Shown here in pieces: positions 49,169-54,006 of a DNA stretch of 64,000 bases (positions are counted from its first letter, which is position 1; every line of letters begins with the position of its first letter). The stretch comes from Chitinophaga deserti. Its GTDB lineage: Bacteria > Bacteroidota > Bacteroidia > Chitinophagales > Chitinophagaceae. The notes below the pieces were generated by a model, which saw only the letters and a program-made list of their open reading frames with translations, had not been told where the DNA came from and did no database searches. The DNA is taken from positions 682,001-746,000 of the forward strand of contig NZ_QFFK01000002.1 of assembly GCF_003149455.1 (NCBI RefSeq), in the 5' to 3' direction. Position numbers and translations under genes: made by a program.

Positions 49169-51229
49169 ATGTTAACGGGATGGTTCAATATCATTAAACG
49201 TATAGGGCTTCAGCCAGACCGCAAGGGAGGCGACGTAAAGCGTTTGATGGTGGTAAATTCCTTCAGTTTTATCACCGCAATCCTTTGCGCCTTCTGTGGT
49301 GTTACCCTTGCGTGGATTTCAGGGGACTGGTCCATTCTCTACACCGCCCTCGGTTTCGTATGCGGTTTCCTTTCCATTCTTGCCTTCAACCGGATTGGCT
49401 GGTATGGTACCGCCAAGTTCTCGCTGATGTTCGTATTCTGCATGGTAATGCTGTATTACGGCGCTACTTTCGGCGAAAGCACACAGGTACATTTTCTCGG
49501 CCTTTTCCTCATCGGCGTTCCCCTCCTAATCTGCACACCAGACGAACAGGAACTGCGCTTCATGTGCCTGCTCATGATCCTCGTGTGCCTGGCCTTACTT
49601 GAAACCAATTACTATTACCAGCTGATCAGCCCGATGGAAATGTCGCGGCAGGAATTATTCTTTTTCAGATGGCTCATCATGTCAGTTGTACTGACCCTCA
49701 ATTTCATGGTCATCAGATTCTATCAGCTCAATATCACCGGCCTCCTGAAGCGGTTGCAAAAAAAGAACGAATCGCTTAACCGTAAGAACGACCTGGTACT
49801 GCGTAAAGAAGCAGAACTGAAACAGATCAATGCCAAATTATCTGCCTATAACGAACATCTCGCGCAGGAAGTGGAAGCCCGTACCTCGGCACTTACGCAG
49901 GGCAACATGATTATGGAAGAGATGATCAGCAATCTCAAAAACAGCAACCGCCAGCTGCGCGAACAGGATAATCTGCTGACCGCACAATTGAAAGAATTGG
50001 AAGAAGCCCGGGAAGCACTTGTGCAGGCACGGGATACTGCTGAGAAAGCAAATCTGGCCAAGTCGGCCTACCTCAGAGAGATCAGTCATGAAATCCGCAA
50101 TCCACTCAACGCTGTGATCGGGATGACCTACCTGCTGCTGAATGAGATCGACAACCGTAACCGCATTCCTCAGAATGCACTCGCTTATATCGAAAGCATC
50201 AGTACCAGCGGCCATACCCTGCTGGAGATCGTCAACAACGTACTGGAACTGGCGCGTATTGAAGCAGGTAAAATAGACCAGGTGCAACCGGAACCTTTTA
50301 ACCTGCGCGATTGGCTCCGCGGTGTTTCGGCCATCTATCAGAATGCCGCCCAGGTAAAGGATGTAGCCATCCAACTGCAGATCGATAACCGCCTGCCTTC
50401 CATCATTTACGGCGATCGTGTTCATCTCACCCAGATCGTCAATAACCTGCTGGGCAACGCTATCAAATTTTCACCTGAAAAGAAGAAAGTGACGCTTCAC
50501 TGTTTCCGTAAAGAATCCATGCAATGGTGCATTCGCGTGTCAGACGAAGGCATTGGTATTCCTGAAGATAAACAGCGTGTTATTTTCCAGCCTTTTGAAC
50601 AGGCCGATGCATCCATACAGGAGAACTATGGAGGTACAGGTCTGGGCCTTACCATTACCCGGCGCATCGCGGAAATGATGGGCGGCAGCATTACAGTATG
50701 GAGCCACCCCGGCGCAGGCACCGCTTTCACCGTAACGCTTCCTCTCAATGCAGAATCTGTTACAGGAGGACTGCAGCCGCTTGAAAATACTACCGCCGCA
50801 CAGCATGAGTATGCTGCTTTTCCTGATGAAACGCGTGTATTGCTGATGGAAGACAGTGAGATTAACCAGCTCATCATGCAGCGGTTTTTCTCTAACGTAG
50901 GGGTTACCCTGCATGTGGCCAACAATGGGGAAGATGGGCTTGCGCTTGCCCGTAAAGTGCATCCCGATATCATTATCATGGACATGCATATGCCTCGCAT
51001 GACAGGCCTTGAAGTAATTGTACAACTGCGTAAAGATCCTGTACTCGCTCATATCCCTGTTATCGCTATTTCTGCAGATGCATTTCACGAACAGCAGGAT
51101 GAAGCCAAGAATGCCGGCGTAAATGAATATCTCATCAAGCCCATCGAATTCGACCGGCTTTACAATGTAATCAGCCAGTACCTGCGCAAGCAATCCCAAT
51201 TCAGGATGCGCGTCATCAAGGCAAGTTAG
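49169..51229 (+). CDS. Hybrid sensor histidine kinase / response regulator
   Basis: 686 aa. Five or six N-terminal membrane helices (about 28-190), a long coiled coil (about 195-295), HisKA domain with phosphoacceptor His307 (REISHEIRNPLNAVIGM), HATPase domain (LLGNAIKFSPEKKK; SDEGIGIPEDKQRVIFQPFEQ; GGTGLGLTITRRI) and a C-terminal receiver (about 560-680) with MEDSEINQLI, the Asp in IIMDMHMPRM and Lys in YLIKPIE. No output domain: phosphate must pass to another protein. Expressed on its own, convergent with the SRAP gene 13 bases away. Confidence 0.94.
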   Translation: MLTGWFNIIKRIGLQPDRKGGDVKRLMVVNSFSFITAILCAFCGVTLAWISGDWSILYTALGFVCGFLSILAFNRIGWYGTAKFSLMFVFCMVMLYYGATFGESTQVHFLGLFLIGVPLLICTPDEQELRFMCLLMILVCLALLETNYYYQLISPMEMSRQELFFFRWLIMSVVLTLNFMVIRFYQLNITGLLKRLQKKNESLNRKNDLVLRKEAELKQINAKLSAYNEHLAQEVEARTSALTQGNMIMEEMISNLKNSNRQLREQDNLLTAQLKELEEAREALVQARDTAEKANLAKSAYLREISHEIRNPLNAVIGMTYLLLNEIDNRNRIPQNALAYIESISTSGHTLLEIVNNVLELARIEAGKIDQVQPEPFNLRDWLRGVSAIYQNAAQVKDVAIQLQIDNRLPSIIYGDRVHLTQIVNNLLGNAIKFSPEKKKVTLHCFRKESMQWCIRVSDEGIGIPEDKQRVIFQPFEQADASIQENYGGTGLGLTITRRIAEMMGGSITVWSHPGAGTAFTVTLPLNAESVTGGLQPLENTTAAQHEYAAFPDETRVLLMEDSEINQLIMQRFFSNVGVTLHVANNGEDGLALARKVHPDIIIMDMHMPRMTGLEVIVQLRKDPVLAHIPVIAISADAFHEQQDEAKNAGVNEYLIKPIEFDRLYNVISQYLRKQSQFRMRVIKAS

Positions 51230-51242
51230 TTCCCATTCAATT

Positions 51243-51992
51243 TTACAATGCCGGTAAGTCGGCCCAGGCCGTTTCTTCGATTACACTTTCGTCGTCGGGT
51301 TTGGCTTTCCGTACGGAATTAACCGTCCAGTAAGCCAGCTCGTCAGAAGGAATACTGTAGGAGAGGATGGACCTGATGCCTTCGTCAGAAAGGTCGGGGC
51401 GCAGCCATTCTTTTTCCAGTTCACGGGGGAGGATGAGGGGCATCCGTCCGGCGTTATCTCCTCCGTTATGAATGCGGCTCATGATGTCGTTAGCGTCGCG
51501 GGTAATAAGTGTGAAAGTACCGGGTATCTCTCCGGTCTCGGGATTAGGGATGTGAGACCAGGCGTAAAGCCCTGCAATAAAGAATATCTCACGGTCTTTG
51601 ACGTGTATGTAATAAGGTACTTTGTTTTTCCATCCCGGTATTTCGCGATGTTCGAAGAAGCCGGTAGCAGGCACGAGGCACCTGTTTTTACGGATGCGGT
51701 TCCAGTAAGCTTTTGGATCCAGCACTTTTTCTGCCCGTGCATTCACCATCCATTTCCTGCCTTTCTTTACTTCTTCAGGCGTTTTCATATAATTCGGAAT
51801 AACGCCCCATTCAAATTTCTGCAGCTTGTATGTGTTGTTATCGCGCAGTACCACCGGCCATTTGGGGTATCCCTGTGCCACTTTGTGAAAAGTAGGTTCG
51901 AAGTGAAGGTCCAGCTGGCCCATGTCTTTCAGTTCGGGCAGATAGTCGAACACGGATGCAATGCTGGCGGAAAATGAAAGGTCGTAACACAT
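51243..51992 (-). CDS. SRAP domain protein (HMCES/YedK family, abasic-site crosslinking)
   Basis: 249 aa. SRAP proteins use Cys2 (after Met removal) to form a covalent, protective link with abasic sites in single-stranded DNA. The conserved residues are present: MCYDLSF with Cys2, VNARAEKV (Asn84, Arg86, Glu88), GFFEHRE (Glu114) and the His in IMSRIHNGG (His175). The usual IH-RMP-IL motif is interrupted by NGGDNAG. It lies four bases after the 161-aa gene, third in the cassette that begins with umuC, which fits a DNA-damage role. Confidence 0.93.
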   Translation of the reverse strand: MCYDLSFSASIASVFDYLPELKDMGQLDLHFEPTFHKVAQGYPKWPVVLRDNNTYKLQKFEWGVIPNYMKTPEEVKKGRKWMVNARAEKVLDPKAYWNRIRKNRCLVPATGFFEHREIPGWKNKVPYYIHVKDREIFFIAGLYAWSHIPNPETGEIPGTFTLITRDANDIMSRIHNGGDNAGRMPLILPRELEKEWLRPDLSDEGIRSILSYSIPSDELAYWTVNSVRKAKPDDESVIEETAWADLPAL

Positions 51993-51996
51993 GGGA

Positions 51997-52482
51997 TCAG
52001 GTTTTTTCGATGTCGGAGAAGGGTATTTTGATTTCTTCCTGTTTCGTTTTCAAATTAAGGAAAAGTTCGCCAAACTGGATAAAGAGCGTAACGGCGAGAT
52101 CTTCTTTCCGGTCGGCCTTCCAGTTGGTATGTCCCCGGATGTATTGTTTGATGGCTGCCCCGGTAGCGGGGTCCGGGCTCCATTTCTTTTTGGCAAGGAG
52201 GGCAATGTATACATGATAACCTTCCGGCTGGCCGGCTGCAATAAAGAGGCGCTCCCGGTCTGCCAGAGCTTCGGCGTCGTAGAGGTGCCGGTGCGGATCT
52301 GCTACGATAGCTTCCATATGGGCGCGTGCTTCTGTGAGGGAGCGGTGGGGCGAGAGCAGGAGGGATGCTTTCAGCGAAGGATGCATCCCCCGCGGATAAT
52401 CCTGCCGTACAAACCACCGGTGCCCCGCATCGAGGAGCCCTTGCAGAACAGCCGGGCGCAATATGGCGAGCGGGTTATGCAT
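51997..52482 (-). CDS. Unrecognised 161-aa protein in the umuC-SRAP cassette
   Basis: I do not recognise a family. The sequence is soluble, without signal peptide, membrane helix or Cys, and has a helical N-terminal half (LTEARAHMEAIVADPHRHLYDAEALADRERLFIAAG is split by short turns), then YHVYIALLAKKKWSPDPATGAAIKQYIRGH and a strand-helix end with LAVTLFIQFGELFLNLK. Its ATG overlaps the umuC TAA (TAATG), and SRAP starts four bases after its stop, so translation is coupled on both sides. Context says it helps polymerase-mediated damage tolerance or abasic-site protection; that is inference only. Confidence 0.8.
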   Translation of the reverse strand: MHNPLAILRPAVLQGLLDAGHRWFVRQDYPRGMHPSLKASLLLSPHRSLTEARAHMEAIVADPHRHLYDAEALADRERLFIAAGQPEGYHVYIALLAKKKWSPDPATGAAIKQYIRGHTNWKADRKEDLAVTLFIQFGELFLNLKTKQEEIKIPFSDIEKT

Positions 52483-53744
52483 TATTCCGGTTTGGCTTTA
52501 ATGATTTCATGGAGGCGGGTGGTGTAGCAGGGGGAAAGGCGCTCCTGCCGCAGTGTCCATTTCTTATCGCCGCCCTGCACCGCAAACCGCAGCACGGGCT
52601 TCCCTGCAAAATGTTTTGTGATACCGTCGAGCGCCTGCATGAGCTTGCGCTCTTTATCGTGATTGGTGGTTTCGAAAAGGTTTTCCTGTACCTCCGTATC
52701 CGGAACAAGATCCATGGCGGTAATGCCCGTTTTCTTGTAATTATATCCCGGTTTAAAGATATGGTCCAGCGCGAGGAGGGCATGGCGGATGAGCTCGCGG
52801 GTGGAATTGGCGGGTACCGGAAGGCGCACGTTCACGGAGCGGTGATACTGCGCATCCTGGCCACGGAAGTTGTTGGTTTGTACAAACACCTGTATTACGG
52901 TAGCGCGGGAGTTTTGACTCCGCAGCTTTTGTGCTGCTACCGCGGCGTAGTTGGCGAGCGCTTCCTGGATATCTGATTTTTCAGTGAGCAGCTGTCCGAA
53001 GGAGCGGGCAACACACACTGCTTTTTTAGGTGGTGCTGCTTCTTCCAGTGCTATACTGGGGATGCCGCGAAGCTCCCGTACCAGGCGGAGGCCCGTTACC
53101 GTGAGTTCCCGCCGGGCAAAGTCGTCTGGTACAAGAGAGAGGTCGAATGCGGTGTGGAAGCCTTTCTGATGGAGCATGGCGGCATACTGGGGCCCGATGC
53201 CCCAGATGTCTTCCACTTGCGTGGCGGCTAATACTGCCCGTGTTTTCTCAGGGGAATCCAGTACGAGAAAGCCTTCCGGCAGTTTATTCTTTTTGACAGC
53301 ACGGTTAGCCATCTTGGCGAGGGTTTTGGTAGGGGCCACGCCTACTGATACAGGCAGGCCCACATCGTGGAGTACGCCGGCGCGGATGGCTGCAGCAAGG
53401 GCGCCGGGGGCAGTATGCCCTGTGAGGTCGAGAAAGGCTTCATCTATACTATACACTTCCATTTCAGGCGCATAGGAAGAGAGTACCTGCATGACGCGTT
53501 GGGAAAGACTGCCATAGAGGGTGTAGTTGGAGGAGAAGACTGCTACCTGGTGGCGCTGCAGGAGCTCTTCCATGAAAAATGCCGGTGCGCCCATCCGTAT
53601 GCCGAGGGTTTTGGCTTCTTCGGAACGGGATATTACGCATCCGTCGTTGTTGCTGAGTACCACCACCGGAAGGTGAAGTACGCCGGGGTGGAAGAGCCTT
53701 TCGCAGCTTACGTAAAAATTATTGCAGTCGACCAGAGCAATCAT
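52482..53744 (-). CDS. umuC: Y-family DNA polymerase (UmuC/Pol V type)
   Basis: 420 aa from ATG 53744 (MIALVDCNNFYVSCERLF); an upstream start at 53795 would cross the operator dyads. Catalytic acids: Asp6, then Asp101-Glu102 in YSIDEAFLDL. SNNDGCVISRSEEAKTLGI and the IWGIGPQYAAML helix-hairpin are UmuC-like. The C-terminal DUF4113 segment RQERLSPCYTTRLHEII is typical of UmuC rather than DinB. UmuC inserts nucleotides opposite lesions and normally needs UmuD'; no umuD is adjacent here. Confidence 0.95.
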   Translation of the reverse strand: MIALVDCNNFYVSCERLFHPGVLHLPVVVLSNNDGCVISRSEEAKTLGIRMGAPAFFMEELLQRHQVAVFSSNYTLYGSLSQRVMQVLSSYAPEMEVYSIDEAFLDLTGHTAPGALAAAIRAGVLHDVGLPVSVGVAPTKTLAKMANRAVKKNKLPEGFLVLDSPEKTRAVLAATQVEDIWGIGPQYAAMLHQKGFHTAFDLSLVPDDFARRELTVTGLRLVRELRGIPSIALEEAAPPKKAVCVARSFGQLLTEKSDIQEALANYAAVAAQKLRSQNSRATVIQVFVQTNNFRGQDAQYHRSVNVRLPVPANSTRELIRHALLALDHIFKPGYNYKKTGITAMDLVPDTEVQENLFETTNHDKERKLMQALDGITKHFAGKPVLRFAVQGGDKKWTLRQERLSPCYTTRLHEIIKAKPE

Positions 53745-53747
53745 TTG

Positions 53748-53788
53748 GCTAATTATATTAGCAAATATAGCTAAATATATTGGCAAAT
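53748..53788 (-). promoter_or_regulatory. Twin dyad operators overlapping the umuC promoter
   Basis: Two near-copies of a 19-bp sequence, GCTAATTATATTAGCAAAT (53748-53766) and GCTAAATATATTGGCAAAT (53770-53788), start-to-start 22 bp. Each contains a dyad GCyAAT-N3-ATTrGC (the first is perfect). They overlap the minus-strand -7 box TATATTTG (53762-53769) and lie 4 bases before the umuC ATG: the layout of a repressor site, by analogy with SOS operators. Confidence 0.65.
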
Positions 53789-54006
53789 CAGGCAAAGCGC
53801 GCTACGATCGCATCGGCGATACGGTCCACCAGTGCTGCATCCGGAGGTACATCGCCCTGGGAAAGTGCCCGCAGCTGATCTTCTTCGTCCAGCTCAAAAA
53901 CCACCAGCCCGTCGCCCGTATCTACATGAAAAGCCATGCCATAACCTTTCACGAAAGGCTTTACTTCAAACTGGCGGTCGTCTACCTTAATGGTAAAATT
54001 GTCCAT
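53788..54006 (-). CDS. Small hypothetical protein upstream of umuC
   Basis: 72 aa, acidic (many Asp/Glu), no Cys, no membrane segment: strand-rich start (FTIKVDDRQFEVKPFVKGYGMAFHV), then a helical end (ALVDRIADAIVARFA). I know no family for it. It ends exactly at the second operator copy, 43 bases before umuC, and could be cotranscribed with umuC or be a separate unit. Coding rests on composition and placement. Confidence 0.6.
   Translation of the reverse strand: MDNFTIKVDDRQFEVKPFVKGYGMAFHVDTGDGLVVFELDEEDQLRALSQGDVPPDAALVDRIADAIVARFA

Follow-up and report, generated by a model that had tools for sequence, protein, structure and literature searches.

The window (the whole 64-kb stretch of Chitinophaga deserti DNA that was analysed) carries three consecutive genes, encoding a UmuC polymerase, a 161-aa protein that we call MID, and a SRAP protein. 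The features of the locus are:

52482 to 53744, minus strand: umuC, 420 aa, with its ATG at 53744 and its TAA at 52484-52482
51997 to 52482, minus strand: MID, 161 aa, its ATG overlapping the umuC TAA by one base (TAATG)
51243 to 51992, minus strand: SRAP, 249 aa, its ATG four bases past MID
53749 to 53761, no strand assigned: exact SOS box CTAA-TATAA-TTAG, 4 bp before the umuC ATG
53762 to 53769, minus strand: TATATTTG, abutting the SOS box and fitting the -7 element TAnnTTTG
53771 to 53783, minus strand: second, degenerate SOS box CCAATATATTTAG, differing at one position and placed 22 bp upstream of the exact box
53788 to 54006, minus strand: P72, a 72-aa protein, a neighbour judged to lie outside the SOS unit
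49169 to 51229, plus strand: histidine-kinase-like gene, a convergent flank that belongs to the site context and not to the cassette

The cassette, put forward in the original prediction, is real: its coordinates, the TAATG overlap and the four-base gap all hold, and, since the gene order is kept across relatives, the arrangement is not due to chance. The proposal of a damage-tolerance operon was likewise upheld: the operon is conserved, carries SOS boxes and encodes an undescribed protein that is linked to SRAP.

The umuC product contains all three regions expected of a UmuC: the IMS palm and fingers (PF00817, E 1.8e-36), the IMS_C little finger (PF11799, E 1.2e-21) and the C-terminal region DUF4113 (PF13438, E 7e-15). 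Its best NCBIfam profile is UmuC (E 1e-117, under the curated cut-off of that profile), it can be aligned to solved structures of Pol IV, and a sequence resembling a clamp-binding motif, QENLF (QxxLF), lies near its C-terminus. SRAP proteins of the HMCES/YedK type crosslink covalently to abasic sites in single-stranded DNA. The SRAP of the cassette matches PF02586 (E 3.1e-39), has 2f20 (8e-37), YedK and HMCES as relatives among solved structures, and begins with MCYDL, which places Cys2 straight after Met1, as membership of this family demands. Judged by its sequence, it is a predicted abasic-site-capping protein of the HMCES/YedK family.

Pol V requires UmuD' and RecA. No umuD is adjacent to umuC in the window. 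However, an S24 protein of UmuD size is encoded on another contig of the same genome (C18, locus L140). It matches PF00717 (E 9e-24), E. coli UmuD is its closest match in the PDB, and alignment of the two revealed an intact Ala-Gly cleavage site and intact equivalents of Ser60 and Lys97; it therefore has the S24 domain, the Ala/Cys-Gly cleavage site and the Ser/Lys dyad that define UmuD. As UmuD is encoded on C18, 'without UmuD' correctly describes the locus, where none is adjacent, but not the organism. In published models of Pol V, UmuD' is bound by the DUF4113 region (PMC12926913), which this UmuC retains.

An orphan umuD of the same kind was present in all five other UmuC-MID-SRAP genomes whose S24 genes we examined (G003, G006, G021, G025 and G036); one further genome (G040) has a cassette lacking umuC and has no orphan umuD. 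All six orphan UmuDs fall into a single clade (support 100/97), whose sister (100/98) is composed of the UmuDs of umuD-umuC-MID operons from the same genus. The window-type UmuCs also form one clade (100/99), nested among UmuCs that have umuD in cis, with its exact neighbours less well supported (83-84). The usual order in other genera of the family is umuD-umuC-MID-SRAP. The UmuC and UmuD trees concur that umuD left the operon in the window lineage, and a single separation would be the simplest history. At three of the six orphan umuD loci, umuD is followed within a few bases by a gene for a conserved 220-aa protein that has no Pfam match (L140:6079-6741, L145 and L147).

UmuD itself varies in other genomes. 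At seven loci its ORF opens right at the point of cleavage, with MGFPSPA or a similar sequence, resembling a ready-cut UmuD'; six of these genes precede umuC (L100, L109, L114, L116, L121 and L137) and one precedes MID (L127). The catalytic Lys97 is replaced by Arg in all seven, so that loss of the N-terminal arm accompanies loss of the catalytic lysine. UmuD without UmuC was seen in 20 of 48 Chitinophaga genomes, usually as UmuD-MID-SRAP (loci L033, L036, L037, L040, L043, L053 and L068). At L033, L043 and L068 UmuD has lost both its cleavage site and its catalytic serine, and at L049 it has lost the serine.

The exact box before umuC is the only CTAA-N5-TTAG in the window. About one such copy is expected by chance in 64 kb (mean 0.69), and the evidence for the box is therefore its position and its conservation. 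An exact box was found at 70 of 97 operon starts, versus 1.8% of random 240-bp stretches, and tandem boxes about 22 bp apart recur upstream of many umuD genes. The longer form TTGCTAA-N5-TTAG occurs exactly at 10 places in the 6.3 Mb of the window genome. Allowing up to one mismatch gave no excess in the same genome (64 sites, versus 107 for a reversed-pattern control), and we therefore used only gene-adjacent boxes, mainly exact ones. Besides umuC, exact boxes in this genome mark the orphan umuD, polY-dnaE2, genes for topoisomerase IV-like and RadC-like proteins (both named by eye from sequence) and the gene for an HTH-S24 repressor. The last (HTH_3 plus S24; L141:4297-5097) is the repressor candidate, and its presence together with an operator at the promoter is what a LexA-type regulon comprises. 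The consensus of the Bacteroidetes -7 promoter element is TAnnTTTG, and TATATTTG at 53762 to 53769 is thus a putative promoter element of the umuC operon. In the available part of a study of the Bacteroidetes LexA regulon (PMC8565304), CTAA-N5-TTAG serves as operator for the non-canonical LexA of this phylum, and Chitinophagaceae are named among the families with large regulons in the CTAA-N5-TTAG group. The same operator stands here at umuC, umuD, LexA-like, polY-dnaE2 and topoisomerase IV-like genes; MID and the split umuD are not among the features described in that part. Taken together, the boxes suggest that the operon would be induced by DNA damage in the window strain.

The boxes lie 3′ of the gene for P72, i.e. 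this gene is upstream of them, and P72 is found at the same site in genomes that lack MID or UmuC (G033, G012 and G032), where it could be what remains of a cassette since lost. For both reasons the suggestion that the 72-aa protein may belong to the system is unsupported. P72 has no match in Pfam at E≤1 or in NCBIfam. P72-like genes number 0-3 per genome, and in other, unrelated contexts P72-like proteins are again encoded upstream of MID cassettes (L034, L048, L051, L116, L133 and L148).

MID has no Pfam match at E≤1 and no NCBIfam or PADLOC match, and searches of Pfam, NCBIfam, PHROGs, PADLOC and PDB sequences returned only scattered weak matches. Assignment to a known family was therefore rejected. 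Profile comparison likewise gave no sign that MID arose by degeneration of UmuD, SRAP, UmuC or P72 (all hhalign probabilities were under 1%, and that for UmuD was 0.1%), and it lacks the Pfam S24 domain. An alignment of 38 family members, which extends over the full length of the protein, has three invariant residues, Q27, H55 and G138, but these suggest no recognised active site. The AlphaFold2 model is a confident alpha/beta fold (pLDDT 92.8), and the N-terminal domain predicted alone is still confident (93.4). However, neither the whole fold (best Foldseek E 0.4; VIA Z 4.4 over 60 residues) nor the N-terminal domain (best E 0.77; Z 4.8 over 67 residues) had a significant counterpart in the PDB, and the best match in a viral library (E 0.018, TM about 0.2) was not usable, although these programs may have missed a relative. 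The original statement that no family is known for the 161-aa protein was thus confirmed as far as Pfam, NCBIfam and significant PDB folds are concerned. These results suggest that MID represents an undescribed protein family, detected here only in Chitinophagaceae; that its role is one of binding or assistance is a guess.

Within the family, MID was found in 51 of 296 genomes and in 29 of the 103 genera sampled. In a class-wide sample of 395 genomes the sole match besides the window genome came from the same family, and a scan of named genomes with a single sequence (P0001) gave four records, all Chitinophaga; of the named records with MID, that of Chitinophaga pinensis isolate 3 is the closest (96%). 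We have 86 MID genes, from fetched loci that were picked for holding MID and are biased towards Chitinophaga, of which 26 are arranged as UmuD-UmuC-MID-SRAP, 21 as MID-SRAP, 15 as UmuD-MID-SRAP, 8 as polymerase-MID-SRAP (one of them, L107, with a DnaE2-type polymerase), 3 as UmuD-UmuC-MID and 3 as UmuD-MID; 10 are lone. SRAP is immediately downstream in 70 of the 86 and not directly downstream in 16, and this adjacency recurs across many genera. A umuD in cis accompanies 47 of the 86, which, by the criterion set in the original prediction itself, refutes a system without UmuD.

The coupling to SRAP is also apparent from gene content. Among 48 genomes of the genus, 34 have both MID and SRAP, none has MID only, 2 have SRAP only and 12 have neither (Fisher 1e-9, with kinship ignored; G007 was scored MID-positive on profile search). 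The two exceptions, G001 and G032, carry SRAP without MID, and SRAP therefore does not require MID. UmuC was found in 11 of the 48, all of which also have MID. In two genera MID-SRAP occupies the 3′ end of SOS-boxed dnaE2-polY operons (L107:1269-6723 and L108:418-6401), and a third genus has the pair downstream of polY-dnaE2 (L133). Several MID genes without SRAP directly downstream have SOS boxes of their own (L034, L051 and L070), and MID may therefore act alone. We also noted relatives of MID in prophage-like settings (L055:4234-6259, with a lysozyme-like gene and SRAP alongside, and L065:6288-6782) and before a LigD-like ligase gene (L054:5957-8638). As genomics, the case that MID follows SRAP rather than UmuC is strong.

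Operons of umuDC with SRAP (DUF159) neighbours were described by Aravind et al. 2013 (PMC3765255). The locus studied here resembles them in having SRAP beside UmuC/UmuD in an SOS context, and differs in the extra conserved protein between umuC and SRAP and, in the window lineage, in the location of umuD on another contig. UmuC-like polymerases have also been linked to SRAP-related proteins as putative regulatory subunits (PMC12926913, 2026); the available part of that report does not describe a third component, and MID is not SRAP-like. As a small protein encoded beside an SOS polymerase, MID recalls the mutasome subunits YqjX/YolD and ImuB-C, yet when tested as one of these it gave no Pfam match and no significant fold match, and it has no detectable family match. 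What is known is the umuDC/SRAP operon; what is new is the undescribed MID component.

We consider it probable that the locus is a derived, split form of the Chitinophagaceae SOS operon (umuD-umuC-MID-SRAP), with umuD acting in trans and MID working with SRAP as a non-enzymatic accessory. The original idea that the 161-aa protein may stand in for UmuD, giving a Pol V free of UmuD, could draw on the absence of umuD next to umuC throughout the window clade, but we regard it as highly improbable, and as stated it is refuted: the trans-encoded UmuD has intact residues and the same SOS operator, UmuC keeps DUF4113, MID and UmuD share no profile similarity, and the two proteins are encoded together in the 47 loci mentioned above. 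MID might instead belong to the Pol V mutasome as its third subunit, binding UmuC or UmuD' or tuning Pol V, with the adjacency of SRAP reflecting operon order only. MID overlaps umuC or is separated from it by a few bases in most umuC-bearing loci, accompanies UmuC in every one of the 11 genomes noted above, and is preceded by UmuD-UmuC in 29 cases; nevertheless, 23 of the 34 MID genomes of the genus have no UmuC, and MID-SRAP is also joined to the DnaE2-PolY operon, which makes such a subunit rather unlikely.

An independent SOS effector, for instance a modulator of replication or of a checkpoint whose only ties to its neighbours are operon and regulon, would account for the MID genes with boxes of their own away from umu genes (L034, L038, L039, L051, L070, L122, L128, L131 and L135), and for those near the LigD-like gene and in prophage-like settings. 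The absence of any MID genome without SRAP among the 48, and the recurrence of SRAP adjacency in many genera, argue against this explanation, to which we give little credence.

The best reading of the genomic data is that MID and SRAP constitute a portable SOS module, joined to either a Pol V or a DnaE2 mutasome, in which MID would be an accessory of SRAP. More specifically, MID could be a dedicated SRAP partner that governs SRAP-capped abasic sites, by loading, release or hand-over to the bypass polymerase, a proposal that we advance only tentatively.

In the split operon, DNA damage would inactivate the CI-like (non-canonical) LexA, freeing the CTAA-N5-TTAG boxes at the umuC-MID-SRAP promoter and at umuD on the other contig. 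UmuD would then cleave itself, and UmuD' would join the UmuC encoded in trans to assemble the Pol V that bypasses lesions, and SRAP would cap abasic sites in single-stranded DNA. MID would most likely work with SRAP, not UmuC, helping it at stalled forks, or, alternatively, may link the capped site with the bypass polymerase that the cell has (Pol V or DnaE2-PolY).

The split umuD illustrates that the completeness of Pol V can be misjudged from gene neighbourhood alone. The finding bears on the question of how bacterial SRAP is linked to translesion synthesis, and why SRAP genes adjoin those of mutagenic polymerases. As a companion of SRAP across several polymerase settings, MID offers a direct handle on SRAP crosslinking, crosslink reversal and bypass. 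If MID does govern SRAP-capped sites, it would provide a portable link between abasic-site protection and Pol V or DnaE2-PolY.
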